NCBI RefSeq assembly: GCF_041320605.1
Contig: NZ_CP166679.1
Coordinates: 2,528,001 to 2,592,000, forward strand
Direction of reading: 5' to 3'
DNA length: 64,000 nt
Source of the DNA: Arenibacter antarcticus
Lineage (GTDB): Bacteria > Bacteroidota > Bacteroidia > Flavobacteriales > Flavobacteriaceae
Both the position numbers and the translations under genes were made by a program. Positions 30,564-58,457 of this stretch are shown here, in pieces. Under the pieces are notes generated by a model. The model saw nothing but the letters and a program-made list of their open reading frames with translations. It ran no database searches and was not told the origin of the DNA. Position 1 is the first letter of the stretch; every line of letters starts with the position of its first letter.

Positions 30564-32129
30564 TTAGTCCAAATCCTGAATCACTTCCGTTAAGGCCTTA
30601 TAAATTATAGGCCCGGTTTCTGGCCCCAAGGAGTTACTCTCTCCGTAGGTAGCGCTTTCCTTATTATAGAGATAGGGCTTTTCTACGTCCCATTCGCTTT
30701 TGGGAATAATATATCCAATCTCGTCATTGGATAGGCCGAGGTAAAACTTGTATTTGTCCCTTATTAACTCCTTTATTGGGGGGATTTCTAAGGGTTGAAT
30801 ATCAAAATCCCTGCCTTCGGGCGCTTCAATGCCCCCATATACAATTTCAGGGTAAATTTCCCCCGGAATGCTTAACCAAAGGCTGGGACCAATACGAATG
30901 GCGCCTACTTCGGTCCTTAGCTTAAAATATTCGGGCATGCCCATATCAATCAATCCCATGGCACTGGCTAGTTTAAAGATATTGTTCTCTACTGGTGCCA
31001 AGAGGGTCTTTGCCCTTAAAGAAATATTGCTTTCTATAATAGTGTCCCCCTTTTGCTTTAGTGCTGCTAGGGAGAGTAGGGCTATTTGATCTCCAAGCGC
31101 CTTTGTCTTTTCAAAAGTTGGTTCTGACAATTCCTCGCCGGTGAAGGGATGTGGTATTGCCAAAGAGGGATGCGGTGCCATTAGGCCACCTATAGCTCCC
31201 GAAAAGTAGATGGCCGTTCCGCCCAATCCTTCCTGCATTAATTGTCCATCGTGATACACACCAGTTTCTATGGCTTCCCGAATGAAGTGCGGAAAATCTG
31301 AGCTAATCAAAAGGTTTTGAGACCAAAGGGTCTCCGGATGATTGGCCCAATTGATCACGGTGCCCATGGTAGTACCATTTTCTGCATCCAGCACCTGCAT
31401 TAAATGAATTCCCGTTGCCTTTACAATGGGTTTCCTAGTATCCTTTATAAACTTTGCGTCGGCCCCCGAAAGATCTTCCGCAAAGACCAGTTTGGCAGTT
31501 CGTATATTGCTCACCGCTTCTGTAATGGCAGCCACTGTCTGGGTTTTTACGTATTCCATCATCTCCGGGTTAACCCCAGAATTAAATATGTTCTCTCCCC
31601 ATATTCCAACAAGATCATTGCTTTCATGGGTGTGGGTCGAGGCAATTAGGGTGTAGTCTATTCCTAATTCCTTGGGAAGGCGTTTCCGAATATCGACCAC
31701 GTCTCCATGTAAAAAACCTATAGCATCCAATGATACTAGGGCGATTCTTGTATTGTTATCCTCAATGACCATTACCCTAGACCATACATCGTCATGGACT
31801 CCTTGGGCAGGCTTGGCATTACTCATGCCAGCAATCCAATACGCGTCAAATATGCCATTATTATTGTTGTCATTGTAGGTGTCTCCCTCACTTTTGTTGT
31901 ATTTGTGGTTTCCATTGGCATCGTTCCATGTGTCTACAATGGTTGGGGTAATAGGCCTTTTTGCAAACCCTGCCCTAATGGGTTGAAGGGCACTATTTTC
32001 TATCTTAAGATCTATGGAATACTCCGGATGCCGGTCCCGCCAATTGTACATGGCTATTGAAACCAGAACAATTAGAAATAGGAAAAAGAGGAGTCCCGTT
32101 ATTTTTATGATTCTTTTAAATGCTTTCAT
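30564..32129 (-). CDS. Neutral/alkaline ceramidase-fold protein, paralogue 1
   Basis: 521-aa membrane-anchored protein (one segment at about 8-27) of the neutral ceramidase family. Zinc-site histidines are kept: His166 and His168 in STHTHES, His264 in NWANHPE. At the place where true ceramidases have GDxSPN with the nucleophilic Ser, this protein has GAIGGL (311-316), so ceramide hydrolysis is doubtful. An insertion at about 68-96 (WNDANGNHKYNKSEGD, NDNNNNGIFD) resembles dockerin or EF-hand calcium loops and is not in the other two paralogues. It is last in a block of five genes; 12 bases separate it from paralogue 2. Confidence 0.82.
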   Translation of the reverse strand: MKAFKRIIKITGLLFFLFLIVLVSIAMYNWRDRHPEYSIDLKIENSALQPIRAGFAKRPITPTIVDTWNDANGNHKYNKSEGDTYNDNNNNGIFDAYWIAGMSNAKPAQGVHDDVWSRVMVIEDNNTRIALVSLDAIGFLHGDVVDIRKRLPKELGIDYTLIASTHTHESNDLVGIWGENIFNSGVNPEMMEYVKTQTVAAITEAVSNIRTAKLVFAEDLSGADAKFIKDTRKPIVKATGIHLMQVLDAENGTTMGTVINWANHPETLWSQNLLISSDFPHFIREAIETGVYHDGQLMQEGLGGTAIYFSGAIGGLMAPHPSLAIPHPFTGEELSEPTFEKTKALGDQIALLSLAALKQKGDTIIESNISLRAKTLLAPVENNIFKLASAMGLIDMGMPEYFKLRTEVGAIRIGPSLWLSIPGEIYPEIVYGGIEAPEGRDFDIQPLEIPPIKELIRDKYKFYLGLSNDEIGYIIPKSEWDVEKPYLYNKESATYGESNSLGPETGPIIYKALTEVIQDLD

Positions 32130-32141
32130 AGTGTTGCCTCT

Positions 32142-33542
32142 TTAGAATTTGGAATGGGTAAGTACATTGGCCATTTTAAAATTAAGTTCCATGAGATAAT
32201 CCCCCATACTTGGACCGTACCACCCCATTAATGCTGCTTCGTAGGTGTCGTAATAATAGTATTTTGGCGGGATGATATAACCTAGATATTGTCCGTTAAA
32301 ACTGCTTAAGACCATTTGGTATCCCTCTGCTTCCAAAGCGTTTTTAAGGTCCAATCCATATTCTCCGCTTAGTTCATAGGGCAATGCTAGCCATATAAGA
32401 TTGTTTAATTGGAATCCTTGTAGGGGGATGGATTTTATTTCAGGCATTAATTTTTGACCTATAAATGGTGATAATCGCAGTCGGTCAGAAATCTTTAGGA
32501 ATTGCAGTTTTGGGATTTCCAATTCTGTGGTGATGGCTGATAAATGGACGTTTGGATTGTATTCCAATCTATTTAGGACTACTTGTGCGGAATCGGCTAG
32601 GGTTTCCCCTATATATTTTGCTTTTTCAAATTTCTCACCTTCTCCTTTGTTGGAATGACTCCCTACGGTACCAGCAAAGAAAAGAGCAAGGTCTGTTCCG
32701 TTCGCCTCTAAATGTCGCTGAAAATACCCAGGATAATCTCCGCTAAATTTGTCGTTAAAGGTGCTTATTACCGTGGCGTGTGCAGAATAGATCCCTATGG
32801 TTGCCTTCTTACCGTTGTCCTGTACAAAGGACAACACGTCCAATTTATCGTTTAATCTGCCTGGTTCCCCAATAATCCTATTTCGAACTACATTGGGAAC
32901 TCTAATATAACCCGATGAAAATTTAGTTGGATGTTTATCTGCTATCGCTTTTTTTATAAGGGTGACAAACTTATCGCTTAGCCAGGCTACCATTTCTGGT
33001 TGATACGCTCCACCAAAACTTTCGCCAACATAGCTGGGAAGGCAGTTCCCAATACTAGAATGAGTGTGTGTTGCTCCAAATAATAGTTGATCCCGTTCTA
33101 TAAGTCCTTTTAGTTTTTCCGAAACCGCTATCACTACAGGCTCTGGCATTAAGAGGAGGTCGGCGCTAATCAATACCAACTTTTGTTCCCCTACTTGTAA
33201 TGCTATTGCCTTGGCGTAAATGGAATCGTGCACCCCATTGGCAATTTTCCCATCCCCATATCCAGCTAATTTAATTCGATTAAATTCACCTATTTCGAGA
33301 TTCGGGCTCCCCTCGACTATCGTGGGGGTAATATTTACTTTTGCAAATCCGGCTAAAAGAGAGCCCTGGGCTTCAGTTTTGTTTTTAGCCGCCACCTCCA
33401 TTTTCGCGATGGTATTATGGTAGTATTCCGTTTCAAAATAGGGGGTGGTATCTATAGAGGCAGTAGCAATAAAGAAAATTAAGCCCAACAATAGCAATAA
33501 GCCGACCCCTATTTTTAACAATACCTTTCCCCATTTTTGCAT
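32142..33542 (-). CDS. Neutral/alkaline ceramidase-fold protein, paralogue 2
   Basis: 466-aa protein with an N-terminal membrane segment (about 8-27). His159 and His161 in GATHTHSS and His255 in YSAHATV fit the zinc site of neutral ceramidases. The nucleophile region reads GTVGSH (291-296) in place of GDxSPN, so the catalytic Ser is replaced by Gly, with a Ser one place later. This suggests altered chemistry or substrate. It lies 9 bases after the BNR lipoprotein gene and 12 before paralogue 1, and is clearly cotranscribed. Confidence 0.82.
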   Translation of the reverse strand: MQKWGKVLLKIGVGLLLLLGLIFFIATASIDTTPYFETEYYHNTIAKMEVAAKNKTEAQGSLLAGFAKVNITPTIVEGSPNLEIGEFNRIKLAGYGDGKIANGVHDSIYAKAIALQVGEQKLVLISADLLLMPEPVVIAVSEKLKGLIERDQLLFGATHTHSSIGNCLPSYVGESFGGAYQPEMVAWLSDKFVTLIKKAIADKHPTKFSSGYIRVPNVVRNRIIGEPGRLNDKLDVLSFVQDNGKKATIGIYSAHATVISTFNDKFSGDYPGYFQRHLEANGTDLALFFAGTVGSHSNKGEGEKFEKAKYIGETLADSAQVVLNRLEYNPNVHLSAITTELEIPKLQFLKISDRLRLSPFIGQKLMPEIKSIPLQGFQLNNLIWLALPYELSGEYGLDLKNALEAEGYQMVLSSFNGQYLGYIIPPKYYYYDTYEAALMGWYGPSMGDYLMELNFKMANVLTHSKF

Positions 33543-33551
33543 CAGCCTACT

Positions 33552-34631
33552 TTATTTAAGTTTTGTTGGGTCCAACTTTATATATTTCACCGTTTTTCGA
33601 TTCCAGGTATATACAATATGGACCATTCCGTCCTCTGCCAGTAGCATGGTAGGGTAGGAGTACTCTTCGCCTTCTTTATCCGTGGTTTCGCGTAGGGGTT
33701 CCAAATCTAGCACTCTATCCCATTTTTTTCCATCAGAGGATAGTGCCAGACTTAAAGGTACCCGGTCTCCCCAGTTTTTTCCTGTGGGGTTGTAGATCAA
33801 TAATTGTCGCCCATCCTTTAGACTTACGCCATCGATACCCGAGTTTGGATTGGGTAGTTGTGTGGCGGTCATTTTATCCCAGGTCTTACCGAAGTCGTTG
33901 GACCAGTTTTGTGAGACTACATTATTTTCGGTACGGCTCAATAATTGTAGTTTCCCATCGCCATAATTTAATACTACTGGCTGTATGGCACCAAATTCTT
34001 TTCCGTCGTTCAGGGATTCGGTCCGGGACCAAGTTTTACCCGAATCTGAGCTATGTTCTAAATGTATCTGCCATCCGTCCTTATCGCTTTCTGTACTGGA
34101 TGGGGATATTATTTCTCCATTAGCCAATTGTATAGGCTGATTTTTTATAGGTCCCAAGACTCCGTCAGGAAGTTTTATAGGGGCAGACCAAGTTTTCCCA
34201 TCGTCATTGGAGGTCATATAAAGACCCCACCAATCCTTAGGATCGGGCCCTACCTTGTAAAATAACATTAGGGGTTGGTCTTTTGGCTTGAACAGCACCG
34301 GATTCCAGCTAGGAAATCGGGAACCATCTGCTTGTACCCCATTGGCCACCTCTACGGGAGCGGACCAAGATCCGTCGGTTTTGCGCGATACCCATATCCC
34401 TACATCGTCATTTTTTTCCTTGGTACCCCCAAACCAGGAAGCCACCACAATACCATTGCTGACCTCTACGGTAGAGGCGTGACATTCCGGAGTCAGTGCC
34501 TTATCTAATTCGTAAATAAATTCCTGTTCTACAATGGCAGGATGGTTTAAGGGAATAATATCGGGTAATTTTTCTATTTTTCCTTTACAAGATATGAGTA
34601 TCAAAGAACATAAAAAGAATAGTAATTTCAT
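33552..34631 (-). CDS. BNR-repeat propeller lipoprotein (sialidase-like fold)
   Basis: 359-aa lipoprotein (MKLLFFLCSLILISC, Cys15); start 34631 chosen over ATG 34691 for the clean signal. It has at least three Asp-box blades (NDDGKTWS, SDSGKTWS, NDFGKTWD) plus weaker SSDGKKWD and KTDGSWS, as in six-bladed sialidase-like propellers. The N-terminal FRIP arginine motif of real sialidases is missing; instead there is CHASTVEVSNGIVVASWFGG. The last blade ends SYPTMLLAEDGMVHIVYTWN, shared with the second propeller in this locus. It is likely an exo-acting glycosidase or lyase on an acidic sugar, but the name sialidase is unsafe. Confidence 0.82.
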   Translation of the reverse strand: MKLLFFLCSLILISCKGKIEKLPDIIPLNHPAIVEQEFIYELDKALTPECHASTVEVSNGIVVASWFGGTKEKNDDVGIWVSRKTDGSWSAPVEVANGVQADGSRFPSWNPVLFKPKDQPLMLFYKVGPDPKDWWGLYMTSNDDGKTWSAPIKLPDGVLGPIKNQPIQLANGEIISPSSTESDKDGWQIHLEHSSDSGKTWSRTESLNDGKEFGAIQPVVLNYGDGKLQLLSRTENNVVSQNWSNDFGKTWDKMTATQLPNPNSGIDGVSLKDGRQLLIYNPTGKNWGDRVPLSLALSSDGKKWDRVLDLEPLRETTDKEGEEYSYPTMLLAEDGMVHIVYTWNRKTVKYIKLDPTKLK

Positions 34632-34695
34632 CCGATTGGTTTTTTTAAATTGATGTATGATTATTTTGTGAAAAATGGATTTTTTCTTCATTTTC

Positions 34696-36015
34696 TTAAT
34701 TGTTAGGTGGGTAAATATTGCTCTTAAAATCAGTGAAGGGTTTAGGAGCAGGTTTGTAGCCTAATAGATCCTTTATTTTAGTAGTTTGATTATTGATTAA
34801 AGGTTTGGCCCAAAACCCAATACTGAAAATAAAGCCCAAGGTCAGGTATAAAAAAATCATTCCACCCCTTAGTCCAATGGCGTCTCCAATAGAACCTACT
34901 ATTAAAGGGACTACGGCACCGCCTACTATTCCTGAACACAGAATGCCAGATAACGCCCCGTGATTGTCCCTAACAGAATTCAATGCTAATGAAATAATGA
35001 TGGACCACATTACAGAAGCAAAAAAACCTATCATAGGAAATGCAATAAGTGCCACCTGGGCAGATCCAAATAAGGCGGCCGTGAGACTCAGGATTGCGGC
35101 TCCAGAGAAGAGTTTTAATACTAGTTTGCTATCCATTATTTTTAGCAAAATAAGACCAAGGATACAACCTACGGTCAACAATCCCCAAAATAGGGAAATA
35201 GTGGTGGCACCTTCTATTCTGGGATCAAAACCGTGATATTGGGATAAAAATTGGGACATCCAGTTGGCTACGCCTTGTTCAGTACCCACATAGGCGAACA
35301 CGGCCATAAAATAGAAGATGACTTTTTTATTTTTTAAAAGCACTTTATTTGTAGCCCAATTTCCCGCTTTTTCCTCCTCATTTCTTTCCACTTTGGGAAG
35401 TTTTACGGGAGCGATTAAGACCAGCATCAACAAACAAATAATGGCAAAGATCCAATATAAAGATACCCAAGGGAGTTCTGCCGGAACCAAATTATGAAAA
35501 AGAGTGATCATAAAATTGCTGTTTTCTGTTCCAGAGTAGTCTTCTAGATTTAGAACTAGATAAGAAAAAAGGAATGGACTCACAAAAGAGGCTAGTCCAA
35601 ACGCCAATTGTCCCAACACAGAGTTAAAGGCGAAATGTTCCTCCCCTCCTGCAACCCGTAATAAAGGGTTAATAGCTACTTGTAACATTGCCATTCCTGA
35701 ACCTATTAAAAACAAGGATAGTAAAGCAATGGGAAAAGTGGGGACGAGCGAGAACAAAATTGCGCCACAAAATGCGATAAAAAATGCTCCCAAAATTGTT
35801 GTTTTTTCCCCGTATTTCTCTACTGCAATTCCGGATGGGATCGAGAAAACACCATAGGCGATAAAGAAGGCAAAAGGCAATAATGCAGCCATGGTAAGGC
35901 TCATTTTAAAATCCGTAATAATATCGGGGATCAAAGGCCCTAAAATATTGGTCAAAAAGGAAATGACAAAAAAGATGAAAAGGATTAGAATTACAATTAG
36001 ATGTCTTTTTTTCAT
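34696..36015 (-). CDS. FucP-type MFS sugar transporter
   Basis: 439-aa inner-membrane permease with about 12 hydrophobic segments. The sequence resembles the FHS family (L-fucose permease and relatives): FLTNILGPLIPDI early, IPSGIAVEKYGEK in the first loop, QVAINPLLRVAGGEE and FNSVLGQLAFGLASFVSPF. It would import the monosaccharide released by the locus in exchange with protons. It lies 24 bases after the BASS symporter gene and 64 before the BNR lipoprotein. Confidence 0.87.
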   Translation of the reverse strand: MKKRHLIVILILFIFFVISFLTNILGPLIPDIITDFKMSLTMAALLPFAFFIAYGVFSIPSGIAVEKYGEKTTILGAFFIAFCGAILFSLVPTFPIALLSLFLIGSGMAMLQVAINPLLRVAGGEEHFAFNSVLGQLAFGLASFVSPFLFSYLVLNLEDYSGTENSNFMITLFHNLVPAELPWVSLYWIFAIICLLMLVLIAPVKLPKVERNEEEKAGNWATNKVLLKNKKVIFYFMAVFAYVGTEQGVANWMSQFLSQYHGFDPRIEGATTISLFWGLLTVGCILGLILLKIMDSKLVLKLFSGAAILSLTAALFGSAQVALIAFPMIGFFASVMWSIIISLALNSVRDNHGALSGILCSGIVGGAVVPLIVGSIGDAIGLRGGMIFLYLTLGFIFSIGFWAKPLINNQTTKIKDLLGYKPAPKPFTDFKSNIYPPNN

Positions 36016-36039: not shown

Positions 36040-36924
36040 TTATAATTTTTCTTCTATGCTTAGTTCGTCTTTTACACCAAGTGGTTTTCTTATAAATATG
36101 ATACCTGTGGCGGTAACGAACATAAGGAGACCGTAGATTGCTGGAACAATGGAATATTCCGCATTGTTAAGTGCAATAGTGGCTAAAGTTATGGCCAAGG
36201 TCCCGTTTTGAATTCCGGTTTCTATGGAAATACTAATGGCTTGTGGTCTGGATAGTTTAAACAATACAGCCAGTAGAAAACCAACGGTCATAGTGCTTAT
36301 ATTTAACAAAATAGCTGGAAGCCCCGCTTCTTGCAAGTAACTCATAAAAACATCTTTAATGCTAAAAGTAACTCCAATAATGACCAAGATAAAAATTACG
36401 GCAGAGGCTATTTTCACGGGCTTGTCCATTTTTTTTGCAAAGTGGGGAAACTTATCTTTCACCAACATTCCTATCCCTACGGGAACAATTACGATGACCA
36501 ATAATTGTTTAACCATGGTCATGGCATCTACGCTGACCGTTAAGCTTTGATCTGCAAATTCTACCAGCGCAAATTGCACTATGATCGGAATAGTAATAAT
36601 GGTGAGCAGGCTGGCCACCGCTGTAAGGGAAACAGACAATGCCAAATCTCCCTTAGCCAAATAGGTCAACATATTGGAAGTTGGTCCACCAGGACATGCG
36701 GCCAATAACATTACGCCAATGGCCGTGGTAGGAGACAGGTTTAAATATAGGGTGATAAGATATCCGATGAGCGGAAGTAGAATAATTTGGCAGGAAAGGC
36801 CCACAATCATGGCTTTCGGGTAGATCAAAACTCTCTTAAAATCTGAAAGGGTTAGGGAAAGTCCCATCCCGAACATGATTATAATTAATGAAATTGCGAG
36901 AATAATTCCAGTAGTAGTATTCAT
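36040..36924 (-). CDS. BASS-family (bile acid:sodium symporter-like) transporter
   Basis: 294-aa membrane protein with about nine to ten hydrophobic segments, showing the family landmarks FGMGLSLTLSDFKRVL near 19-34, LLAACPGGPTSNMLTYLAKGD near 93-113 and ISIETGIQNGTLAITLA near 230-246. The BASS family moves organic anions with sodium. It is first in its block and preceded by a 203-base gap that probably carries a promoter. Presence beside a sugar permease suggests the locus releases an organic acid as well as a sugar. Confidence 0.87.
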   Translation of the reverse strand: MNTTTGIILAISLIIIMFGMGLSLTLSDFKRVLIYPKAMIVGLSCQIILLPLIGYLITLYLNLSPTTAIGVMLLAACPGGPTSNMLTYLAKGDLALSVSLTAVASLLTIITIPIIVQFALVEFADQSLTVSVDAMTMVKQLLVIVIVPVGIGMLVKDKFPHFAKKMDKPVKIASAVIFILVIIGVTFSIKDVFMSYLQEAGLPAILLNISTMTVGFLLAVLFKLSRPQAISISIETGIQNGTLAITLATIALNNAEYSIVPAIYGLLMFVTATGIIFIRKPLGVKDELSIEEKL

Positions 36925-37127: not shown

Positions 37128-38159
37128 CTATTCTTTCATGGCATTGAACCGCTCCATAATTTCTTTCCAATTGGTAAAAATGATATCCTCTTCTTTGAAA
37201 AAATCGATTAGATCAGGGTCTCCGAACATTTTGGCCTCCCATACTCTTTGCTGCCAAGAATTGGTTATTCCCTTTAAGTTCTCGGTCTCTACCGAGGGGT
37301 GAAAAATAATTTCGGTGAGTCCAGGTTTCAGTGCGAGAATAAGTTTTTTAAAGTTGGCTATCTTTTCGTCATAAGATTTGGCTTTAGGGGCACTCGTAAA
37401 AAAGTCTAATTTGGGAAGAGTGTAGCCAGCTATCATGTCAACAACCGAATCATCCAAAGGATATCCTTGTTCCTTAAATAGGGCCAATACTTTTGGGTTG
37501 GAAATGTCTATGATATTTGCTGGAATACCGTATTCCTGAGCTACCTTAATATATGCTTTCACATAACTAGGATCGCCATACAGGGTCCCCATATGCGTGT
37601 CTATATGATCTGGGGTATAGCCCCAAGCAATGGATTGTTCTATTTGGGCGCGGATCTCTTTTTCCACTTCTAAATCAGAGGCGTTTTGTACCACTTCTGG
37701 TACGCTTCGCCATAATTTGGATTCTGGGTCCACTAAACCGGGGACCTGGGTTTTGTCGGTGATAGGCCCCCAGCGGTACTCCTTCCATTCACTGGTGAGG
37801 GTAAGGTGCAACCCGATATCCATTTTCGGATTTTCTATGGCCCAGCTGATAAATTCTTCGGCACTGGCACAAGGGATCATTACCGCTGCGGACTGAATTT
37901 GGCCAGTTGTCAGTTGCGCTTTGGCCGCAATATTCGCTTCTGGGCACATGCCAATATCATCTGCATGTAGCATGATAATTTTTTTTCCTGCTGGCCAGCC
38001 CAATTTTTCGGCCCATGTATTGGGGGTTTCGGATAACTGTTCTAAGCTATCCAAGGTAGTTGTGGCTACTTGGTCCTTACTTTTCTTTTCTCCACATCCC
38101 ATTAGAAATACAGAAAGACTCAAGGCCAATATAGATTTAGTTAAGAGTAATTTTTTCAT
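37128..38159 (-). CDS. YdjC/ChbG-family deacetylase lipoprotein
   Basis: 343-aa lipoprotein (lipobox FLMGC, Cys22). The YdjC/ChbG fold is seen in LHADDIGM near 64-71, IGLHLTLTSEW near 115-125 and DHIDTHMG near 183-190, which supply the metal-binding Asp and His residues. The family deacetylates N-acetylated disaccharides such as chitobiose; exported members are less studied. It would remove acetyl groups in the periplasm before uptake. It is last in a four-gene block and 14 bases after the alpha/beta hydrolase. Confidence 0.82.
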   Translation of the reverse strand: MKKLLLTKSILALSLSVFLMGCGEKKSKDQVATTTLDSLEQLSETPNTWAEKLGWPAGKKIIMLHADDIGMCPEANIAAKAQLTTGQIQSAAVMIPCASAEEFISWAIENPKMDIGLHLTLTSEWKEYRWGPITDKTQVPGLVDPESKLWRSVPEVVQNASDLEVEKEIRAQIEQSIAWGYTPDHIDTHMGTLYGDPSYVKAYIKVAQEYGIPANIIDISNPKVLALFKEQGYPLDDSVVDMIAGYTLPKLDFFTSAPKAKSYDEKIANFKKLILALKPGLTEIIFHPSVETENLKGITNSWQQRVWEAKMFGDPDLIDFFKEEDIIFTNWKEIMERFNAMKE

Positions 38160-38173: not shown

Positions 38174-39094
38174 TTATAAATATTCGTTAAACCAATTGAG
38201 GCCATCGCCATAGATACTGTCTAAAGGAGCGTCCCTATGTTTGGCATTGTACCATATTATTTCTTTTGGTTGCCTCGCGCCTTTAAAAAGTAATTTGGAC
38301 ATCATTGGCGGAACTACCTCGTCATTTTTGGCGTTTAACATTAAAAAGGGACGTGGGGCTATCTGCTTTACAAAATTTAAAGGTTCAATAATACTGGTAA
38401 ATTCTTTTGCCTCCCGCGATAGACCGCCCTTTCCATAAAGTAGATTTAATTGTCCCCCTGCCAATGCTACAATTGGAACTTTTACTCTGTCTTCCAACCC
38501 GCAGAATATTGTGCCCGTTATTCCCCCAAGGCTAATACCATAATACCCTATTCTATAGGCATCTAGATTATTTTGGGTCTCTATAAAATCTACGGCACGT
38601 CTTAGGTCAAAAACAGTCTGGGCAATAATTTCCCTAGTCCAATATTTGTGTGGCCCAGTAAGATCGAAATCATAAAAATCCCCTTTTCTTTCCCCGTGGT
38701 CGTTCATATCTAACCGCAAGACAGCATATCCATTTTTAGTAAAAAGAGAATTGCCATAGGCTACATAATCTACCGCCTTATGGTCGCCAAGTCCGTGCAT
38801 TAAAATTATTACTGGATAGGGAGCCTTTCCAATTTTGGGTATACTCAATAGTCCGGTTACAATCTTGTTGTGTACACTGGTGTACTGTAGGTGGTACAGA
38901 TAAAAATCAGAAGTATCCTGCAAGGGTGCCAGCGTGTCATTTAAGGGGATTGCCTTGTCATATTCATAATAGTTGGTTACCGAAATACTATGGCTGGTAC
39001 TAAGAAAGGATATCAACAGATACATGCAGGTCAACAATAGTAAAGCAACTATTGCAACCGACCAACGACTGTTTTTTTTTCTAAAGAATTTCAT
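38174..39094 (-). CDS. Membrane-anchored alpha/beta hydrolase
   Basis: 306-aa protein with one N-terminal membrane segment (about 12-32). The hydrolase domain has LMHGLGDHKAVDY near 98-110, the nucleophile elbow GISLGG, acid in LNAKNDEVVPP and base His in NAKHRDAP. It resembles dienelactone hydrolase and acetyl xylan esterase-type enzymes. It probably cleaves an ester on the locus substrate. It overlaps the PqaA-like gene by 14 bases, so the two are translationally linked. Confidence 0.8.
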   Translation of the reverse strand: MKFFRKKNSRWSVAIVALLLLTCMYLLISFLSTSHSISVTNYYEYDKAIPLNDTLAPLQDTSDFYLYHLQYTSVHNKIVTGLLSIPKIGKAPYPVIILMHGLGDHKAVDYVAYGNSLFTKNGYAVLRLDMNDHGERKGDFYDFDLTGPHKYWTREIIAQTVFDLRRAVDFIETQNNLDAYRIGYYGISLGGITGTIFCGLEDRVKVPIVALAGGQLNLLYGKGGLSREAKEFTSIIEPLNFVKQIAPRPFLMLNAKNDEVVPPMMSKLLFKGARQPKEIIWYNAKHRDAPLDSIYGDGLNWFNEYL

Positions 39095-51106: not shown

Positions 51107-52378
51107 ATGAAAACATCCAATTGGAGAATTCCCATGCTTATTGTCGCGATGTCTTTGGCAACAGCTTGGGCAATACGAGGTCAGTTTGGACATGAACAAG
51201 GAGCTGCATGGGCAGGAGGAATTGGAGGATTGGCGTTGGTACTTGTGTCGCAACGACGGGATTGGTACCGTAAAATGATGCTTGTTGCCTTGGCCTCGGC
51301 AGTAGGTTGGGGAGCTGGTGGTATGATCAGTTATGGAATGGTGGTTGGTTATGGGAATGCAGATAATTTTCCCAATGCATTTTACGGTTTAGGGATGTTG
51401 TTCGTCATAGGCGGACTTTTCGGATTGTTGGGAGGTGGACTGGTGGGACTTACCTTGGATTCCACCCGCGAAAATAGGGTGAAATGGGGTTCGCTAATAA
51501 CAGAAATGGCAGTAGGCGGACTCATTGGGTATTATTTTTTGGTAGAACAAATAGGAATTAAAATGACCCCGCCACGTTCAGAAGCCTGGGCGGTCTGTTT
51601 GGGAGCCGGATTGGCGATGTTGTGGCATTTGGCAAGGGGAAAGAGAAATTCTGCTATGAGAGTGGCATTTTTTTCCATGCTGGGAGCCGGTATAGGGTTT
51701 GGGTTCGGTAATTTTTTACAAGTGATGGGGAAAATAGGGCAGGTTTCCTTTAATATGTGGAACGTTATGGAATATAGTATCGGATTTTTCGGAGGCCTAG
51801 GGATGGCCTACGGCGTATTTAGCTCCAAATGGCCCCAAGATATTCCTGGACCAAAAAAATGGGAAAACTGGAGTTCCTACATCATCGTTGGGCTGTTTAT
51901 ACCCCTGATCGTTTATAGGGAATCCTTGAGTTTCGAACATCTGGTTCGGCGTTTTAAAGATTTGCCAAATGTAGCATCCCTAGCTACCACAAGTACAATA
52001 GTGGCAGCGATAATACTCTTGATGATGATGTGTTTATTGTATTGGAAAATGAAAAAAGAGCGCATAGAAAAAAAAGATGTACTACATGCTTTATTTATCT
52101 TATGGATTCCCTATATATTGGTCAGTTATATTGTAAAGGGGCTTTTTGGGGGAGTAATGGAAATTACCCATCACTTGTATTTGTTAAATGTATTGATAAT
52201 AATTATATTGGGTCGAATTAAAAATGCCCCCATTTCATTTGGGGACTTGGATAAGGTGCCAGTAAAAAAATGGATTTACCTTCTAATGGGCGCTATATTA
52301 TTTATGGCTTTTTTGGCGCTTTTAGCCAGCAGTTTGCATGGCGATATAGGAGGACATAATAGATTCCCTTTAGATTAG
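51107..52378 (+). CDS. Polytopic membrane protein, unknown family
   Basis: 423-aa protein with about 10-12 hydrophobic segments and many Gly-rich helices (GGIGGLALVL, GLFGLLGGGLVGL, GAGIGFGFG). A short N-terminal stretch IRGQFGHEQGAAW looks conserved. The final periplasmic-type tail is SSLHGDIGGHNRFPLD. No catalytic motif or known transporter signature was found. It is followed 4 bases later by the ferric reductase-like gene, so they are cotranscribed. Candidate roles are substrate uptake or membrane anchoring of the enzymes, both inference. Confidence 0.75.
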   Translation: MKTSNWRIPMLIVAMSLATAWAIRGQFGHEQGAAWAGGIGGLALVLVSQRRDWYRKMMLVALASAVGWGAGGMISYGMVVGYGNADNFPNAFYGLGMLFVIGGLFGLLGGGLVGLTLDSTRENRVKWGSLITEMAVGGLIGYYFLVEQIGIKMTPPRSEAWAVCLGAGLAMLWHLARGKRNSAMRVAFFSMLGAGIGFGFGNFLQVMGKIGQVSFNMWNVMEYSIGFFGGLGMAYGVFSSKWPQDIPGPKKWENWSSYIIVGLFIPLIVYRESLSFEHLVRRFKDLPNVASLATTSTIVAAIILLMMMCLLYWKMKKERIEKKDVLHALFILWIPYILVSYIVKGLFGGVMEITHHLYLLNVLIIIILGRIKNAPISFGDLDKVPVKKWIYLLMGAILFMAFLALLASSLHGDIGGHNRFPLD

Positions 52379-52382
52379 GTCT

Positions 52383-53021
52383 ATGAGTGTTAAGAAAGAA
52401 AAAAATGGTGTTAATTTCATTATTCTTGTGGTTGCGATCTCTATTGGATATGCCATTTTAAGATATCAAATAAAGGGCGATGTTCCCTGGAAAGACCTCC
52501 CTGTATTTATCCTTAACAAGGGAATTTCCCTTGCCGCGATAACCCTTTTGTCTTTATGTATATCTATAAGGCCGTTGTCTAATTTAGGTGTTCAGCTCTT
52601 TTCTTCCAGACAGGCCAAGAAGGTTTTGGGAATCTCTGGTCTTTTGTTGACCATTGCCCATGTATTGTTAAGTTTTTTGATTTTTAACCCAAGTTATTTT
52701 AGTGTTTTTTTTGAGGAGGATGGAACATTGTCCTCCAAGGGGTCATTAAGTTTGCTTGCAGGGGTTGTTGGCTTTATGCTAGTGATAATATATCATCACT
52801 GTTTTGGGGGTGTCCGTGCGGGTAAGGAAAAACTGATAAAAATAGTAACCTCCAAAAAGTTTATTTTGGGATTATTGTTGTTGTTTGGGCTACACCTTTT
52901 TTTTATGGGGTATTCTAACTGGATGCTACCCTCCAATTGGCAAGGTGGATTGCCTCCTATCAGTTTAATTTCTTTTGTTGTAGTTTTCTTGGGATTGGGA
53001 ATAAATATTTCTGGACGGTAG
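52383..53021 (+). CDS. Ferric reductase-like membrane protein
   Basis: 212-aa protein with about six hydrophobic segments. The SRQAKKVLGISGLLLTIAHVLLSF segment, YHHCFGG and GLHLFFMGYSNW have His residues placed as in ferric reductase or MsrQ-type haem membrane domains. The assignment is by resemblance of layout and is tentative. It is tightly linked to the preceding unknown membrane protein and converges on the AraC gene. Confidence 0.6.
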   Translation: MSVKKEKNGVNFIILVVAISIGYAILRYQIKGDVPWKDLPVFILNKGISLAAITLLSLCISIRPLSNLGVQLFSSRQAKKVLGISGLLLTIAHVLLSFLIFNPSYFSVFFEEDGTLSSKGSLSLLAGVVGFMLVIIYHHCFGGVRAGKEKLIKIVTSKKFILGLLLLFGLHLFFMGYSNWMLPSNWQGGLPPISLISFVVVFLGLGINISGR

Positions 53022-53067: not shown

Positions 53068-53916
53068 CTACCTAAATGTTTTTCGATAATCTGATGGGGT
53101 CTTGCCCATTATAAATTTAAAATAATGATTAAAGTTGGCAAGATTGTTATAACCACTTTCAAAGCAGATTTGGGTAATCTGTTTATCGGTCTCCGCCAAT
53201 AATTTAGCCGCTATACCTACTCTAACAGTTTTTACATACTCCATAAAGGTATGGCTGGTCTTTTTCTTAAAATACCTGCAAAAACTACTGGGGGCCATAT
53301 TTAATACCGCTGCGGCCTCTTCCAATTTTACTCCTTCTTGGATGTTTTGAAAAACATATTCGTAAACCTTGTTTATTTTATCTAAATTTTTTGAAAAAAT
53401 ATGGGAGTTGCTATGGGGGTTAGAAAGGTTTTCCCTTTCCTCCAATTGTATCAGATAATTAAATACAGTTAATAATTGAATATAGTAATCCAAACCTGTC
53501 AATAACGTCATTTTTTCCAGTATAGATCGTATATGGATATCATTTTCCACCTTAAATCGAAGCCCTGTGTTGGACTGCTTTAGCAAATCCACAACCTTTT
53601 CCAATTCGGGCATTTTAAAAAAATCCGAGTTGATGATGTCTTCCGAAAAATGGGTTACAATGCAGAAGGGGTCTTTTCCCTTTTCGGAATCCAAGGCTTC
53701 CCAACAGTGCGGTAAATTTGGCCCTAGGAGTACTAGGTCGCCTTTTTCAAATCCAGAAATATTGTCTCCTACAATTCTTCTACCCGATCCTGAGGTTATA
53801 AAATTTAATTCAAAATTCCTATGAGAATGAATTCTGGCATTAGATGCCAAGGGCAATTTTCTAGAAATAAATGAATGCTTTGTAGGGACATAGATCTTCT
53901 CAAAAATAAACTCCAT
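53068..53916 (-). CDS. AraC-family transcription regulator
   Basis: 282-aa regulator, or 288 aa if the ATG at 53934 is used. The N-terminal cupin-type sensor domain (about 15-95) has RIHSHRNFELNFITSGSGRR and ENGDL-like GFEKGDLVLLGPNLPHCW. The C-terminal double helix-turn-helix (about 185-280) ends ICFESGYNNLANFNHYFKFIMGKTPSDYRK, the family signature. It is the only regulator in the locus and likely responds to a sugar and controls the flanking blocks. It is divergent from the aldolase gene. Confidence 0.88.
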   Translation of the reverse strand: MEFIFEKIYVPTKHSFISRKLPLASNARIHSHRNFELNFITSGSGRRIVGDNISGFEKGDLVLLGPNLPHCWEALDSEKGKDPFCIVTHFSEDIINSDFFKMPELEKVVDLLKQSNTGLRFKVENDIHIRSILEKMTLLTGLDYYIQLLTVFNYLIQLEERENLSNPHSNSHIFSKNLDKINKVYEYVFQNIQEGVKLEEAAAVLNMAPSSFCRYFKKKTSHTFMEYVKTVRVGIAAKLLAETDKQITQICFESGYNNLANFNHYFKFIMGKTPSDYRKTFR

Positions 53917-54150
53917 ATTTATATATATTGACAATTTTTTACCAATATAATTAATTATTTTAAAATAAAAGGTAAAATATAATGTAATTAAAACAATATT
54001 GTAGTGGTGTAGGGAGTGAAATTGATTTTATTTTGTTAAAGACTTAATTGTTTTGAAAATAGATTTTTGAAAGGCACTATCAGCTGCCCCTGCTGTGCAG
54101 ACTTTTATCAAATTTAACTAAGAAACGGAGGTCTTTTAAAAAACAAGCAA

Positions 54151-55074
54151 ATGAATTTACCTATAAAAGGAATTATTCCTCCAATGATTACCCCGTTGTC
54201 GGAGAATTTAGAATTGGATCTTAACGGATTACAGAAATTGATACATCATTTATTAGAGGGTGGTGTACACGGTATTTTTTTGCTCGGGACCTCGGGAGAG
54301 GGACCCAGTTTAAGCTATGAAACCCGAAAACAGTTGATCACAGAGACCTGTAAAATAGTGGGCGGTAAGGTGCCCGTTCTTGTAGGGATCACCGATACTT
54401 CCTTTAAAGGTGCGCTAGAAATAGCCACCCATGCAAAGAAAGAGGGGGCCGATGCCCTGGTAGTAGCGCCGCCCTATTACCTTCCCATATCCCAACAAGA
54501 AATGATTGATTACCTAGAAAATTTGGTGCCCCTTTTGCCGTTGCCATTTCTTTTATACAATATGCCCAGTTGTACAAAATTGAGCATGTCCATGAAAATA
54601 GTAAAGAGGGGAAAGGAACTGGGTGCAATAGGGATAAAGGATAGTTCTGGTGACCTTTCATTTCTCTATATGTTGATCGAGGAATTTAAAAACGACCCTT
54701 TGTTTTCCGTTATTACGGGGACCGAATTATTCTTACCCGAAACTATAATGAACGGAGGACATGGTGCCGTTGCAGGAGGAGCAAATTTCTTTCCGAAATT
54801 ATTTGTAGATCTTTATGAAGCTATGCAGGAAAGGGATTTTGATAGAGTAAAAGCTTTACGGCAAGAGGTCATTATGATCCATAACACGATCTATGAAGTG
54901 GGTAAACATTCATCTCGACATATCAAGGGTACCAAATCTGCCTTGTCTGCAATGAACATTTGTCAGGATTATGTAGCTGAACCTCTTCAGAGATTTAATG
55001 AGGATCAACGAAATCTAATTAAGGAGTATATTGGACAGTTTAAACAAAGCACCAACTATAATACAGCAATATGA
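54151..55074 (+). CDS. Dihydrodipicolinate synthase / N-acetylneuraminate lyase family aldolase
   Basis: 307-aa TIM-barrel aldolase. GTSGEG at 46-51 binds the keto-acid carboxylate, Tyr136 lies in LLYNMP and the Schiff-base Lys163 in GIKDSSGD. The family includes DapA, NanA and KDG/KDX-type aldolases; substrate cannot be settled. Given the sugar permease and BNR proteins, cleavage of a 2-keto-3-deoxy acid or sialic-type sugar is more likely than lysine synthesis. The stop overlaps the ATG of a 33-aa frame by ATGA. Confidence 0.85.
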   Translation: MNLPIKGIIPPMITPLSENLELDLNGLQKLIHHLLEGGVHGIFLLGTSGEGPSLSYETRKQLITETCKIVGGKVPVLVGITDTSFKGALEIATHAKKEGADALVVAPPYYLPISQQEMIDYLENLVPLLPLPFLLYNMPSCTKLSMSMKIVKRGKELGAIGIKDSSGDLSFLYMLIEEFKNDPLFSVITGTELFLPETIMNGGHGAVAGGANFFPKLFVDLYEAMQERDFDRVKALRQEVIMIHNTIYEVGKHSSRHIKGTKSALSAMNICQDYVAEPLQRFNEDQRNLIKEYIGQFKQSTNYNTAI

Positions 55075-55172: not shown

Positions 55173-55181
55173 ATTTGGAAC

Positions 55182-56636
55182 ATGGAGAACAAGAGATGGA
55201 CAAGGGCGTTTATGGGGGTTATCCCTCCTTTTGCCCTTTTTGTCATTGTCCTGTTTTTTCCGTACCAAATAGCTATTATTGATGCCCTAACAGTACAGCC
55301 CCTAGCCGAATACGGTATCCATATACATTTTTGGAGAATTGTGTTCGAGCCATTTTTGGGGCCTTTACTCTATTTTAATAGAGCTATTAATCCACTTCAG
55401 GAGCTGCCAATTGCTGTTATGTGGATTTTGGTCCTCTATTTGGTTTATGGGTTGATGCAGCTTAAACCCCTTCAATCTATTCTGCTAAGAAGAAAGAAGC
55501 TTTTAAGAATATTGGGGAACCTTCCGTTATTGGTCGGAATCGGATTTGGCATTTTTGTAATACTTCTGTTTATCCCATTACCCAATAATACGATAGTCAA
55601 TAATTCCCAAAATGATATTTTAGTGACCACCCATACACATACGGAATACAGTCATGATGGACTTACCTCCCAAAAAAATATGTGGAAATGGCATAAAAGA
55701 AATGGGTTCGATGCCTTTTTTATTACCGATCATGCCAATCATAAAAAAACGTTGGAATTTTCTGAGCAACAGCGGAATAATAAATTTCCTCTAAAGCCTT
55801 TGGTCCTTGTAGGACAAGAACATTCGGGCTCTAACCACATGAGTCTTCTGGGGTTGGACGGAAGTTTCGTTACCAAAGATAAACCAGATTCCAGTATCGT
55901 TAAGTTAACCCACAAATATGGCGGAGCTGTTATTGTAAATCATTGGTTTGATGGCAAGGGAAAAGAAAAGGAATTTTATAAGGCTTTGGGAGTAGATGGT
56001 TTTGAAATTGAAAATGTTGGCAAGGAGTTGTACTACGATCGATCACAATTTAGGGAACTTAAAAAATACTGTGAAGAAAATGGTTTGATTATGGTGGGTG
56101 GGCTAGACTACCACGGTTACGGGAGGGTTTGTGCTATTTGGAATGCCTTTACCATTCCCAATTGGTCAGGGATGGACCCAGATCATAAAGAGAGCGCCAT
56201 ACTCCAAATTTTAAGGGAAAGGGATCAGAGCAAGCTAAAGGTGCTAATGTACAGAGACAGGCCTTTAAATGAAGGACTGAGCCCTTTATTTGGTCCTATT
56301 GTCACGGTGGTCAATTATTTTAGGACTCTCAATAGCTTTCAGGTGGTTTCTTGGATATTATGGTGGGGTGTTTTACAGTTATTTTTGAAATTTAAAAAAG
56401 CTAATGTTATGGGCTGGGACAAAACTTTAGCAATAGCAGGAGGGGCAAATGCCTTATTTTTACTGGTCTTGGGAGTGTTATACTTTTTAAGGGGCCAAGT
56501 TATAGAAGGATATAGTGATTTATATGATGAGTACAGCTCGCTCTTGTTTATTATAGGAGGAGTTTTAGCGGTTTATTCGGCAATGGTGATTTACAGTCGA
56601 TTTTTCGCGCAGCAAAAAATAGGGAGAAAAGAATAA
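55182..56636 (+). CDS. Membrane-embedded PHP-domain phosphoesterase
   Basis: 484-aa protein with an unusual layout: about three N-terminal membrane segments (to about residue 131), a PHP domain, then about three more membrane segments (about 385-475). The PHP metal motifs are THTHTEYSHDG (His151, His153, His158), FITDHANH near 179-186, GQEHSGSNH, VNHWFDG and GGLDYHGYG. The PHP family are metal-dependent phosphoesterases; membrane insertion suggests a phospholipid or membrane-coupled substrate. It is linked to the aldolase and the 33-aa peptide. Confidence 0.83.
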   Translation: MENKRWTRAFMGVIPPFALFVIVLFFPYQIAIIDALTVQPLAEYGIHIHFWRIVFEPFLGPLLYFNRAINPLQELPIAVMWILVLYLVYGLMQLKPLQSILLRRKKLLRILGNLPLLVGIGFGIFVILLFIPLPNNTIVNNSQNDILVTTHTHTEYSHDGLTSQKNMWKWHKRNGFDAFFITDHANHKKTLEFSEQQRNNKFPLKPLVLVGQEHSGSNHMSLLGLDGSFVTKDKPDSSIVKLTHKYGGAVIVNHWFDGKGKEKEFYKALGVDGFEIENVGKELYYDRSQFRELKKYCEENGLIMVGGLDYHGYGRVCAIWNAFTIPNWSGMDPDHKESAILQILRERDQSKLKVLMYRDRPLNEGLSPLFGPIVTVVNYFRTLNSFQVVSWILWWGVLQLFLKFKKANVMGWDKTLAIAGGANALFLLVLGVLYFLRGQVIEGYSDLYDEYSSLLFIIGGVLAVYSAMVIYSRFFAQQKIGRKE

Positions 56637-56693
56637 AACCATAGGGCTTTCCCATCTCTATTAACAAATTTAAGAGGATTCTCTTTTATTAGC

Positions 56694-57569
56694 TTATCGG
56701 TGAAGATTATGTGCCCTTAGGTACTTTAAAAGGGCTTCCGGTAGATCAGTCTGAATTACATTAACGTGCTTCTTGCGCAACAAGGTATTAAATCCGGAAT
56801 CTTTTTCTAAACGTTCCATTTCATCATATTTACCTAGGGCATTGATCCAAATCCTTGCCCCAGAGTTGGTGATTCGGCGCATGGTACGGTCTTTATAGTA
56901 GCTTTCATCTACATGTATAATATCAATATGGTCCATTTTTAAAATGGCCCTAACCTCTTTCTTGGAATAGGCCCTTGGCATAATCCGGATGTTGCTATCC
57001 AATTGTTGTAATGTGGGCGTTTCCTGATAGTCGTATAGAAAAAATAGAATCTGATTTTCCATCCCGTATTTTTGAATAAGGGCATAGGTCTTCTCAATAG
57101 AGGGCATATCCTCCAATTTAAAATCGATATCAATAAGAATCTTTCCCTTGGTTAATTTAAGCACTTCTTCAAAAGTAGGGATACGCTCCTCGGTGATACT
57201 ATCCCGAATAATAAGTTGAAATCCTTTTAATTCCTTCAGGGTGTAATCTTCAACTTTCCCGCTGCTGTTGGTGGTCCTGTCCAAGGTGCGGTCGTGCATT
57301 ATTACCAGCTCTCCGTCCTTACTTTGCCTTATATCCAATTCAACAATATCCACGCCAATGCGAATACTCTCTTCTATGGCTGCTAAAGAGTTTTCCGGAA
57401 AATGTTCATTAGTGGCCCTGTGGGCAGCAACCAACACTCGCTGAGGTTTGTTATTGAAGTCGTATAAAATACTGTCCAAGTTCGATTCCTGGGCAGATAG
57501 ACCAACAGTTAGAAAAAAAGATATAACAAAAAGAAATCTTTTAGGCATTAGGGATGTGAAGTGGTTCAT
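56694..57569 (-). CDS. Secreted glycerophosphodiester phosphodiesterase
   Basis: 291-aa exported enzyme from ATG 57569 (MNHFTSLMPKRFLFVISFFLTVGLSAQ signal in two parts); an in-frame start at 57665 would add 32 residues without a signal. GDPD core: AAHRATNEHFPENS, VDIVELDIRQSKDGELVIMHD and ILIDIDFKLED carry the His, Glu and Asp metal ligands. The family splits glycerophosphodiesters to glycerol 3-phosphate and an alcohol. It is divergent from a second GDPD gene. Confidence 0.88.
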   Translation of the reverse strand: MNHFTSLMPKRFLFVISFFLTVGLSAQESNLDSILYDFNNKPQRVLVAAHRATNEHFPENSLAAIEESIRIGVDIVELDIRQSKDGELVIMHDRTLDRTTNSSGKVEDYTLKELKGFQLIIRDSITEERIPTFEEVLKLTKGKILIDIDFKLEDMPSIEKTYALIQKYGMENQILFFLYDYQETPTLQQLDSNIRIMPRAYSKKEVRAILKMDHIDIIHVDESYYKDRTMRRITNSGARIWINALGKYDEMERLEKDSGFNTLLRKKHVNVIQTDLPEALLKYLRAHNLHR

Positions 57570-57707
57570 TTCGAAACTAAAATTTGATGATGGTCTAGTA
57601 TGTATGTCAATTAAAAATATCCCTAAGATATGGGATTTATCCTTGTGGTAATAAAAATTTGACATACCTTTTTACTTCAATTACTAAAATACCTAAAGTT
57701 AAAACAG

Positions 57708-58457
57708 GTGAAAAGGAAATTGTCAGGTGTTTTTTTGATGCTTATAGTATTTAGTGGATGTAAGCAATTAAACAAACCATTGGTAATAGGGCATAGAGGG
57801 GCAATGGGGCATGCCACTGAAAATACCTTGGAATCTATCCAAACAGCGATGGACCTGGGGGTAGATATGTTGGAAATTGATGTATTTAAAACAAGAGATG
57901 GGGAAATTGTGGTTTTTCACGATTCCAGTTTAAAACGACTTACAGGGCAACCAGGGAATATTGAGGAGCTAGATCTTAAAGCAGTGAAGGCATTAACGCT
58001 TGCACGAAACACTAAGATTCCAACCCTAAAAGAAGTGTTGGACTTGATGAAGGGCGAAACCATGCTCAATATAGAACTTAAGGGTGCCCACACAGCCGAA
58101 TCCGTAAATGAAATAATCAATCATTATATTAATAAAGGGAATTGGGAGCTGAAGGATTTTTTAATTTCAAGTTATAAATGGGACGAATTAAAAAGAATAC
58201 GGGAGTTGAATGGAAAAATCCCCATTGCAGTGCTGATCCAGAAAGACCCCTTAGACGCTATCCCTATTGGTCATGAACTTAAGGCGATGGTCATTATCCC
58301 TAACTATAAGAAGCTGACCAAGAAGAACGTTAGAATCCTCCATGAGGAAGGCTTTAAAATTTATCCTTATACCGTAAATGGGTATCTGCAAATTAAAAGA
58401 ATGGCGAGAATGGGGGTAGATGGAATTATCACCAATTATCCCAATCGGGTTAAGTGA
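57708..58457 (+). CDS. Glycerophosphodiester phosphodiesterase lipoprotein
   Basis: 249-aa lipoprotein starting at GTG 57708 with lipobox VFSGC (Cys18). GDPD motifs are VIGHRGAMGHATENT, DMLEIDVFKTRDGEIVVFHD and LNIELKG with the catalytic and metal residues. It is shorter than the divergent secreted paralogue and lacks its extra segments. It would act at the membrane on glycerophosphodiesters, fitting a substrate that is phospholipid-derived. Confidence 0.87.
   Translation: MKRKLSGVFLMLIVFSGCKQLNKPLVIGHRGAMGHATENTLESIQTAMDLGVDMLEIDVFKTRDGEIVVFHDSSLKRLTGQPGNIEELDLKAVKALTLARNTKIPTLKEVLDLMKGETMLNIELKGAHTAESVNEIINHYINKGNWELKDFLISSYKWDELKRIRELNGKIPIAVLIQKDPLDAIPIGHELKAMVIIPNYKKLTKKNVRILHEEGFKIYPYTVNGYLQIKRMARMGVDGIITNYPNRVK

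Follow-up and report, generated by a model that had tools for sequence, protein, structure and literature searches.

A SusCD-linked locus with an unusual enzyme set in Arenibacter antarcticus and related marine Bacteroidota, possibly for use of an ulosonic-acid glycoconjugate

Two kinds of described systems come closest to the locus analysed here. Sus-type polysaccharide utilisation loci combine a SusC/SusD pair with a surface lipoprotein, a regulator, secreted hydrolases and inner-membrane transporters, and in bacterial sialic-acid (Nan) loci a propeller frees an ulosonic acid, a symporter imports it and an aldolase splits it into pyruvate and an aldose. The locus in question lies at positions 30564-58457 of a 64,000-nt stretch of the genome of Arenibacter antarcticus (the window, to which all plain position numbers refer; its genome bears the handle G000). 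It has the components of the Sus-type loci listed above and belongs with them, although its enzyme set is unusual: family scans of the window copy found BNR_2 and YdjC as the only carbohydrate-active-enzyme-type candidates and no other named glycosidase or lyase family, whereas this copy holds three ceramidase-type proteins, a BASS-family symporter, a PHP protein and two orphan membrane proteins. It follows the logic of Nan loci as well, but these use an epimerase for the aldose, where relatives of the present locus would use the isomerase FucI or an oxidoreductase. A literature search of titles and abstract openings, with most subscription papers outside its coverage, found no description of this locus. 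We consider it probable that the locus scavenges a glycoconjugate. With about even confidence we see in it one SusCD-coupled locus for the use of a glycoconjugate that is acylated and phosphorylated and carries a 3-deoxy-2-ulosonic acid like 3-deoxy-D-manno-octulosonic acid (Kdo), a sugar familiar chiefly as a constituent of bacterial outer membranes.

A conserved block of about 20 genes

Family scans placed every gene named in an earlier note on this DNA within 30564-58457. They also showed three genes that the note had not listed, one for a PKD-domain lipoprotein preceding SusC and two for the orphan membrane proteins mem423 and mem212. The genes form two divergent units (Table 1). Leftward from 41791 run cer3, PqaA, an alpha/beta hydrolase, YdjC, BASS, a major facilitator superfamily (MFS) transporter, BNRa, cer2 and cer1; rightward from 42097 run PKD, SusC, the adjoining SusD, BNRb, a metallophosphoesterase, mem423 and mem212, followed by AraC (leftward), DapA, PHP and the glycerophosphodiester phosphodiesterases GDPDa (leftward) and GDPDb. 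By simple rules, a signal, lipobox or membrane anchor is present on the degradative enzymes and on DapA there is none; the start of GDPDa is ambiguous.

Co-inheritance was assessed in 199 Flavobacteriaceae genomes, a sample of one per genus rather than the whole family, each counted once and with the window genome included unless stated. Profile cut-offs were set by eye (cer1 at full length, DapA at >=57% identity, mem423 without a 35-residue fragment of G120), and the weak cer matches of G144 and G212, which would bring the cer matches to 11, were left out of the co-occurrence statistics. Full-length cer1 occurred in 9 genomes, mem423 in 8, YdjC in 9 (orthologues at >=65%), DapA in 10 and PHP in 6, and all 8 genomes with full-length mem423 also have YdjC and DapA. 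Without the window genome, mem423 (7 genomes) and YdjC (8) coincide in 7 (p 4e-12), YdjC (8) and DapA (9) in 8 (p 2e-13), and cer1 (8) and YdjC (8) in 6 (p 1e-8). The 10 pairwise p-values among these five genes range from 2e-13 to 6e-6 and overstate independence because the genera are related. The earlier note had proposed one uncharacterised SusCD-linked locus whose gene order would recur in other flavobacterial genomes, and had named a failure of the blocks to co-occur as grounds for rejecting it; YdjC, DapA and mem423 lie largely in the same genomes of the 199, the blocks co-occur in related genomes and the order holds across genera.

Matches to cer2 were found in 19 of 60 genomes, namely the window genome, 15 of 17 other same-genus genomes (all but G008 and G012), the other genera G028 and G035, and a single genome of another family, G037 (44%). 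Gene order around cer2 is kept in 12 relative regions as far as they reach, most weakly in G037. The core seen in other genera comprises cer3, PqaA, the alpha/beta hydrolase, YdjC, BASS, BNRa, cer2 and cer1 on one side and PKD, SusC, SusD, DapA, PHP, mem423 and AraC on the opposite side, often trailed by a second DapA, a sodium:solute symporter (SSF) and a Gfo/Idh oxidoreductase, with individual genomes missing members. The PKD gene adjoins SusC in all eight of the compared loci that have it, and PHP directly precedes cer1 in 8 of the 15 cer1 loci not titled Flavobacteriaceae (L081-L090, L092, L094-L096 and L098; metagenome-assembled genomes, several short, some titled to phylum only). Further gene counts come from 63 compared regions, 16 under G handles and 47 named loci with unequal flanks, drawn partly from the same genomes (apparently so for L070/G035, L074/G028, L076/G229, L080/G175 and L067/G224, among others). 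Among them, the MFS gene recurs in 11, BNRb in 5 and a GDPDa homologue (>=33%) in 9; mem212 is present in 6 of the 16 G-handle regions and in none of the 47 named loci, most of which end before its place. GDPDb, which the earlier note had counted as a member, falls outside the conserved core: none of the 12 relative regions yielded a separate match to it, though some stop short of where it would lie, and the right edge of the locus is therefore soft. Relatives repeatedly carry phosphatases and esterases (purple acid phosphatase, PF04185 phosphoesterase, HAD, BD-FAE), and classical glycosidases of families GH92, GH31, GH2 and GH3 lie within the locus there. The block of about 20 genes is, with high confidence, a single evolutionary unit, present in a minority of marine Bacteroidota.

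Table 1. Features of the locus at 30564-58457 of the window, with scores from family scans
Feature	Position	Strand	Evidence
cer1, predicted membrane-anchored ceramidase-fold metallohydrolase	30564..32129	-	Pfam 29.6 bits, below cut-off
cer2, ceramidase-fold protein with N-terminal anchor	32142..33542	-	Pfam 58.3 bits
BNRa, lipoprotein, sialidase-fold propeller with altered active site	33552..34691	-	BNR_2 287.5 bits
FucP/GluP-type MFS sugar transporter	34696..36015	-	MFS_1 114.8 bits; gluP 123 bits, below cut-off
BASS-family sodium symporter	36040..36924	-	SBF 139 bits; bass 214.5 bits, below NCBI cut-off
YdjC-family deacetylase, lipoprotein	37128..38159	-	169 bits; lipobox LMGC
Alpha/beta hydrolase, esterase-like, N-terminal anchor	38174..39094	-	Hydrolase_4 39.7 bits; AXE1 35.3 bits
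PqaA (PhoPQ_related) alpha/beta hydrolase, lipoprotein	39081..40463	-	368 bits; lipobox
cer3, ceramidase-type protein, hydrophobic N-terminus	40475..41791	-	Pfam 25.4 bits, below cut-off
PKD-domain lipoprotein, probable surface glycan-binding protein	42097..43047	+	PKD_4 50 bits
SusC/RagA TonB-dependent transporter	43110..46502	+	TIGR04056 605 bits
SusD-like_2 lipoprotein	46521..48173	+	262 bits
BNRb, second BNR_2 propeller, signal peptide	48525..49730	+	183 bits
Secreted metallophosphoesterase	49798..50919	+	Metallophos 61 bits; purple-acid-phosphatase-like N-terminus, Pur_ac_phosph_N 23.5 bits, below cut-off
mem423, orphan polytopic membrane protein	51107..52378	+	no family above cut-off
mem212, orphan membrane protein	52383..53021	+	no family matched
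AraC-family regulator	53068..53934	-	HTH_18 78 bits
DapA-family class I aldolase, proposed Kdo aldolase	54151..55074	+	DHDPS 181 bits
Membrane PHP phosphoesterase, CehA/McbA-like	55182..56636	+	PHP 36 bits; CehA_McbA 39.8 bits, below cut-off
GDPDa, glycerophosphodiester phosphodiesterase, accessory	56694..57665	-	97 bits
GDPDb, outside conserved core	57708..58457	+	165 bits

In the G013 region (L033), near 8039-8550, only short, divergent fragments match the metallophosphoesterase gene. A protein of about 730 residues (L041:15825-18023), with relatives in 8 regions, adjoins the locus and has no Pfam family above cut-off; by eye its first half is propeller-like and its second half helical, and it may be a new glycosidase or lyase. 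Elsewhere in the window, a NamZ exo-N-acetylmuramidase (17372-18673) and a plant-GH3-family protein (58668-60215) have no tie to the locus, though the latter type lies near the locus edge in G007 and G010. We did not equate the alpha/beta hydrolase of the locus with the polyethylene terephthalate (PET)-active dienelactone hydrolase of Arenibacter palladensis, since a passage of PMC13188925 describes the latter as lying outside any operon and outside conserved regions; the two are set apart by this description only.

Altered active sites in the ceramidase-fold and propeller proteins

By their residues, the ceramidase-fold proteins do not appear to be canonical ceramidases. The Pfam Ceramidase_alk cut-off of 32.1 bits is passed by cer2, with cer1 and cer3 below it, and the NCBI equivalog for neutral ceramidase (cut-off 1200) gave 19.3 bits for cer1, 20.9 bits for cer2 and no match for cer3. 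An AlphaFold2 (AF2) model of cer1 (pLDDT 80.8) had 2zws as its best Foldseek match (E 4.7e-22, TMq 0.59), and all 4 PDB matches at E <=0.001 were neutral ceramidases; the single cer1 sequence found nothing at E <=1 among PDB sequences. The family profiles of cer1 and cer2 both match neutral ceramidases in the PDB, that of cer2 reaching 1.2e-21 against 2zws over the His-ligand region and a weak 10.9 bits over the Glu/Tyr region, while additional matches of the cer1 profile to histones (E 0.11 and 0.34) were taken as chance. For cer3, whose ceramidase fold is putative, the sole PDB match had an E of 0.89.

Compared with the neutral/alkaline ceramidases (PF04734; 2zws, 4wgk), cer1 shares the predicted fold and the zinc-ligand positions His, His and Glu. 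We take the full ligand set to be His, His, Glu and Tyr; the first three positions are present in cer1-3, as motifs THTH, NHPE-type and PGE in cer1 and the same His/Glu motifs in cer3, where the Tyr position is not clear. The differences are an identity of 14-15%, a TM-score of 0.46-0.50 by target length, a size of 438-521 residues against 646-688, and a Gly at the expected Ser position. The catalytic Ser of ceramidases presumably lies in a GDVSPN-type motif. All three proteins have a Gly where this Ser is expected. In place of GDVS, cer1 reads G311-A-I-G314, with Gly314 invariant in 26 aligned sequences; the Gly-for-Ser assignment follows this motif, as the alignments to 2zws did not extend over the stretch. 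Two further ceramidase-type loci exist in the window genome (G000:C1:2211800-2222200, L114, and 4033300-4039400, L115); their neighbours include what looks by eye like a sulfatase, and a DUF7133/cytochrome c protein that was scanned in L114 and recognised by eye from a similar start in L115.

The propellers, described in the earlier note as members of the same subfamily, do belong to one family, BNR_2, and are not close copies (33% identity between BNRa and BNRb). The AF2 model of BNRa (pLDDT 84.9) has the sialidase propeller fold (Foldseek match 1eus, 1.5e-15) and, like the GH33 sialidases, two of the three Arg and the Tyr nucleophile position. It differs from these in having Gln237 aligned with the sialidase Glu and His71 at the first Arg, with 15-19% identity among the 50 matches listed; His71 was assigned by the residue spacing expected for sialidases. 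Arg253, Arg310, Tyr346, Gln237 and His71 are invariant in 18 sequences. These changes, together with those in the aldolase described below, bear out, at the residue level, the earlier remark that a number of the enzyme names are at odds with standard chemistry.

The aldolase and its link to FucI

The DapA protein belongs to the superfamily of dihydrodipicolinate synthase (DHDPS) and N-acetylneuraminate lyase (NAL) and keeps the class I aldolase residues Lys163 and Tyr136. It departs from DHDPS at Arg138, which we take to bind the substrate carboxylate: a Cys replaces it, in the motif PSCT, in all six aligned sequences. Scores against two nanA models (103 and 78 bits) lay below their cut-offs of 281 and 382, and that against the dapA model (165 bits) was higher, again below its cut-off of 206. 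The closest solved structure, 4xky of B. thetaiotaomicron (363 bits), is deposited as DHDPS and reads PTHT, with His at the substrate-binding Arg position; this label is doubtful because the Arg is replaced and the structure is closest to this clade. Lysine synthesis was set aside as the role of the locus DapA, as another protein of the same genome (L046) has GTTGE and YNVPGRTG, with PGRT kept, and looks like a true DHDPS. The window genome also has a 192-residue frame at G000:C1:1174720-1175196 that matches only the first and last parts of DHDPS, its middle seemingly missing.

Sialic acid was likewise set aside as the acid. The window genome has an ordinary sialic-acid locus elsewhere (L120, G000:C1:4131239-4147364) with SusCD, GH20, a GDSL esterase, a creatininase-family protein, a GH33-type BNR protein with FRIP, an AGE epimerase, an SSF symporter fused to an N-acetylneuraminate epimerase (NANM) domain, and a DHDPS-family protein, distinct from the locus DapA, which we took as NAL by context and motif; another acid is therefore likely at 30564-58457. 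This bears on gangliosides and sphingolipids, which the earlier note had proposed to try as substrates and which would be used through sialidase propellers, neutral ceramidases and a sialic acid lyase. Fold-level matches to sialidase and neutral ceramidase speak for such a role, but the Gly for Ser in the ceramidase motif, the replaced GH33 Arg and Glu, the nanA scores and the separate sialic-acid locus all speak against it. With neither propellers nor aldolase of sialic-acid type by the residues checked, and with non-canonical ceramidases, we regard ganglioside or sphingolipid use as very improbable and did not retain it.

A different acid is suggested by the genes beside DapA in relatives. 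Among the 198 genomes other than that of the window, the DapA clade (E <=1e-60; 13 genomes) and FucI, the L-fucose/D-arabinose isomerase (E <=1e-100; 11 genomes), coincide in 7 (p 2e-7), and in 6 of these 7 the two genes are 1.7 to 14.4 kb apart. DapA, SSF and FucI are contiguous and in the same direction in L122 and adjacent in L123, with FucI on the opposite strand; the search matches of both FucI contained one TAA, yet the fetched regions have open frames of 593 residues. FucI lies inside the locus itself in four distinct relatives (G175, G212, G229 and L073). In the window genome a BNRa paralogue (52%) is one gene from FucI, and the kinases adjoining FucI there and in G175 are closest to the ribulokinase 3qdk (354 and 326 bits). 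This window-genome region (L121, G000:C1:1156950-1167240) holds an AraB-type kinase, FucI, two BNR propellers including the paralogue, an FG-GAP-like protein (by eye) and a weakly GH2-like protein. A further FucI, in L129 (G169:C16), lies beside a different DHDPS-family-like protein (by eye), a HAD protein, an FG-GAP protein and a 63% relative of the window metallophosphoesterase.

These genes could also reflect L-fucose, with the locus serving an L-fucose glycan and DapA acting on 2-keto-3-deoxy-fuconate, as the FucP-type MFS of the window and the FucI genes inside the four relative loci would fit. However, FucA-like, FucK-like and aldehyde-dehydrogenase-like genes, a standard set for L-fucose, adjoin FucI in all four FucI genomes without this DapA and in none of the eight with it, in regions of about 15-40 kb (these genes were named by eye and matched by BLAST; some of the FG-GAP names were also given by eye). 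The keto-deoxy L-fucose route moreover needs no isomerase, so that FucI would be superfluous in it, and we consider L-fucose quite unlikely. FucI also isomerises D-arabinose, and Kdo aldolase splits Kdo into pyruvate and D-arabinose. On this basis Kdo is our preferred, if tentative, candidate for the acid, at somewhat short of an even chance.

Proposed route and candidate substrates

From the gene content, co-inheritance, predicted folds of cer1 and BNRa, residue changes and the DapA-SSF-FucI linkage in relatives, we infer the substrate, the order of steps and every activity of the following route. At the surface and in the periplasm, N-acyl groups would be removed by the ceramidase-fold zinc hydrolases and YdjC, O-acyl groups by PqaA and the alpha/beta hydrolase, and phosphate by the metallophosphoesterase, the PHP protein and a GDPD, while the BNR propellers may free a terminal ulosonic acid. 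The PKD protein, SusD and SusC would capture and import the pieces, and products would cross the inner membrane through MFS, BASS and, in relatives, SSF. DapA would split the acid into pyruvate and an aldose, which for Kdo would be D-arabinose. The aldose could enter central metabolism via FucI and a ribulokinase-type kinase, whose genes some relatives have within the locus and the window genome has elsewhere; in other relatives a Gfo/Idh oxidoreductase perhaps handles the aldose instead. AraC is a likely local regulator. The acylated, phosphorylated glycan with an acidic sugar that the earlier note envisaged fits this enzyme set, and the acid is here narrowed, by reasoning from the aldolase and its neighbours, to a Kdo-like ulosonic acid.

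Several observations weigh against the route or against the unity of the locus. N-deacylation would have to be carried out by a ceramidase fold that lacks the serine, and the GH33 residue set (Arg triad, Glu, Tyr) is incomplete in BNRa, with two residues replaced. Among the nine locus-bearing genomes (YdjC plus DapA at >=57%), 6 have PHP and 7 a full-length cer1. The locus of G169 lies at two sites 0.34 Mb apart on one contig, and its FucI is on a different contig from DapA. The window genome has its FucI 1.4 Mb from the locus and no SSF within it. A ribulokinase-type kinase stands by FucI in only 4 of 9 neighbourhoods (its own, G134, G175 and L073) and was not found there in G101, G199, G169, G212 and G229. 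At E <=1e-100, FucI is missing from 4 of the 9 locus-bearing genomes (G028, G035, G120 and G224); each has a Gfo/Idh gene in the locus, that of G035 with D-xylose dehydrogenase as its best NCBIfam match, below cut-off, and no full alternative route was found in these four. Among the titles and abstract openings listed, the literature search found no tested Kdo activity for this DapA clade. Finally, no promoter motif common to the cer3/PKD and AraC/DapA intergenic regions exceeded shuffles; the best 9-mer (one mismatch allowed) occurs in 11 of 13 DapA-side sequences, a count that was also reached in 2 of 20 shuffles.

In a bolder, rival reading, the substrate is the lipid A-Kdo-heptose part of lipopolysaccharide (LPS) from the outer membranes of other bacteria, as necromass or vesicles. 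The ceramidase-fold metalloamidases would then cut amide-linked acyl chains, the esterases ester-linked ones and the phosphatases phosphates; the altered sialidase-fold propellers would be Kdo hydrolases, the glucosaminidase-like glycoside hydrolases of relatives would cut the sugar backbone, Kdo would pass through the aldolase-FucI-ribulokinase route, heptose would also be catabolised, and mem423 would act in this system as a new type of carrier or enzyme of the inner membrane. Besides the Kdo-type DapA-FucI module, heptose genes favour this candidate. A GmhA-type (heptose) isomerase occurs in 9 of the 15 cer1 loci not titled Flavobacteriaceae, including L092, which supplied the queries for GmhA, PfkB-HAD, ROK and GSU2086 and counts among the 15. 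A heptose-7-phosphate-kinase-like PfkB domain is fused to a HAD domain at L092:2378-4282, and such HldE-like (rfaE-type) fusions occur in 7 of the 15 loci; of the 9 GmhA-bearing loci, 7 have the fusion, 5 a ROK kinase, 5 a GSU2086-family gene and 4 all of these, and over all 15 loci the ROK and GSU2086 counts are likewise 5 each. In Geobacter, GSU2086 lies between GSU2085 (hldE) and GSU2087 (gmhA), according to a passage of PMC5585712. L089 holds DapA, SSF and AraC with the GmhA, PfkB-HAD and GSU2086 genes and cer1. DegT and Gfo/Idh genes, as for 3-amino sugars, are found in L096 and L098 and beside the Flavobacteriaceae loci G035, G120 and L097, and a GH2 with an exo-beta-glucosaminidase Ig domain adjoins cer1 in G037 and occurs close to the locus in G035. 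Acyl chains in both amide and ester linkage, combined with phosphate, heptose and Kdo, point to the core and lipid A of LPS. Against this, the Flavobacteriaceae loci compared, that of the window included, yielded no heptose gene, the GmhA and HldE matches fall below the NCBI equivalog cut-offs, genes of these types can serve synthesis of the cell's own glycan, and among the matches listed the literature search found no bacteria growing on LPS. We therefore consider LPS a possible but rather unlikely substrate.

The same DapA-FucI module would suit a wall glycan of algae or plants rich in Kdo or 3-deoxy-D-lyxo-heptulosaric acid (Dha), such as prasinophyte algal scales or pectin like rhamnogalacturonan II, in which case acyl and phosphate removal would be decoration chemistry. 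The hosts include marine Flavobacteriaceae named for algae (Arenibacter algicola, Maribacter polysiphoniae), and relatives carry GH31, GH92, GH2 and GH3. However, no pectin lyase, GH28, GH78 or GH106 was found among those proteins of the locus and its relatives that were scanned (an unscanned 860-residue protein of L082 has, by eye, a beta-helix pectinase-like start), and three ceramidase-type proteins and several phosphoesterases would be left unexplained; we consider this substrate unlikely.

If the preferred reading is correct, the locus would offer a genetic handle on the marine recycling of an acylated, phosphorylated, ulosonic-acid-bearing glycoconjugate, perhaps bacterial LPS, which makes up a large pool of organic matter with, to our knowledge, hardly any known recyclers. 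Databases label the proteins concerned as ceramidase, sialidase and lysine-biosynthesis enzyme; the ceramidase-fold proteins, BNR_2 propellers and DapA-like aldolases would instead gain new, testable functions.

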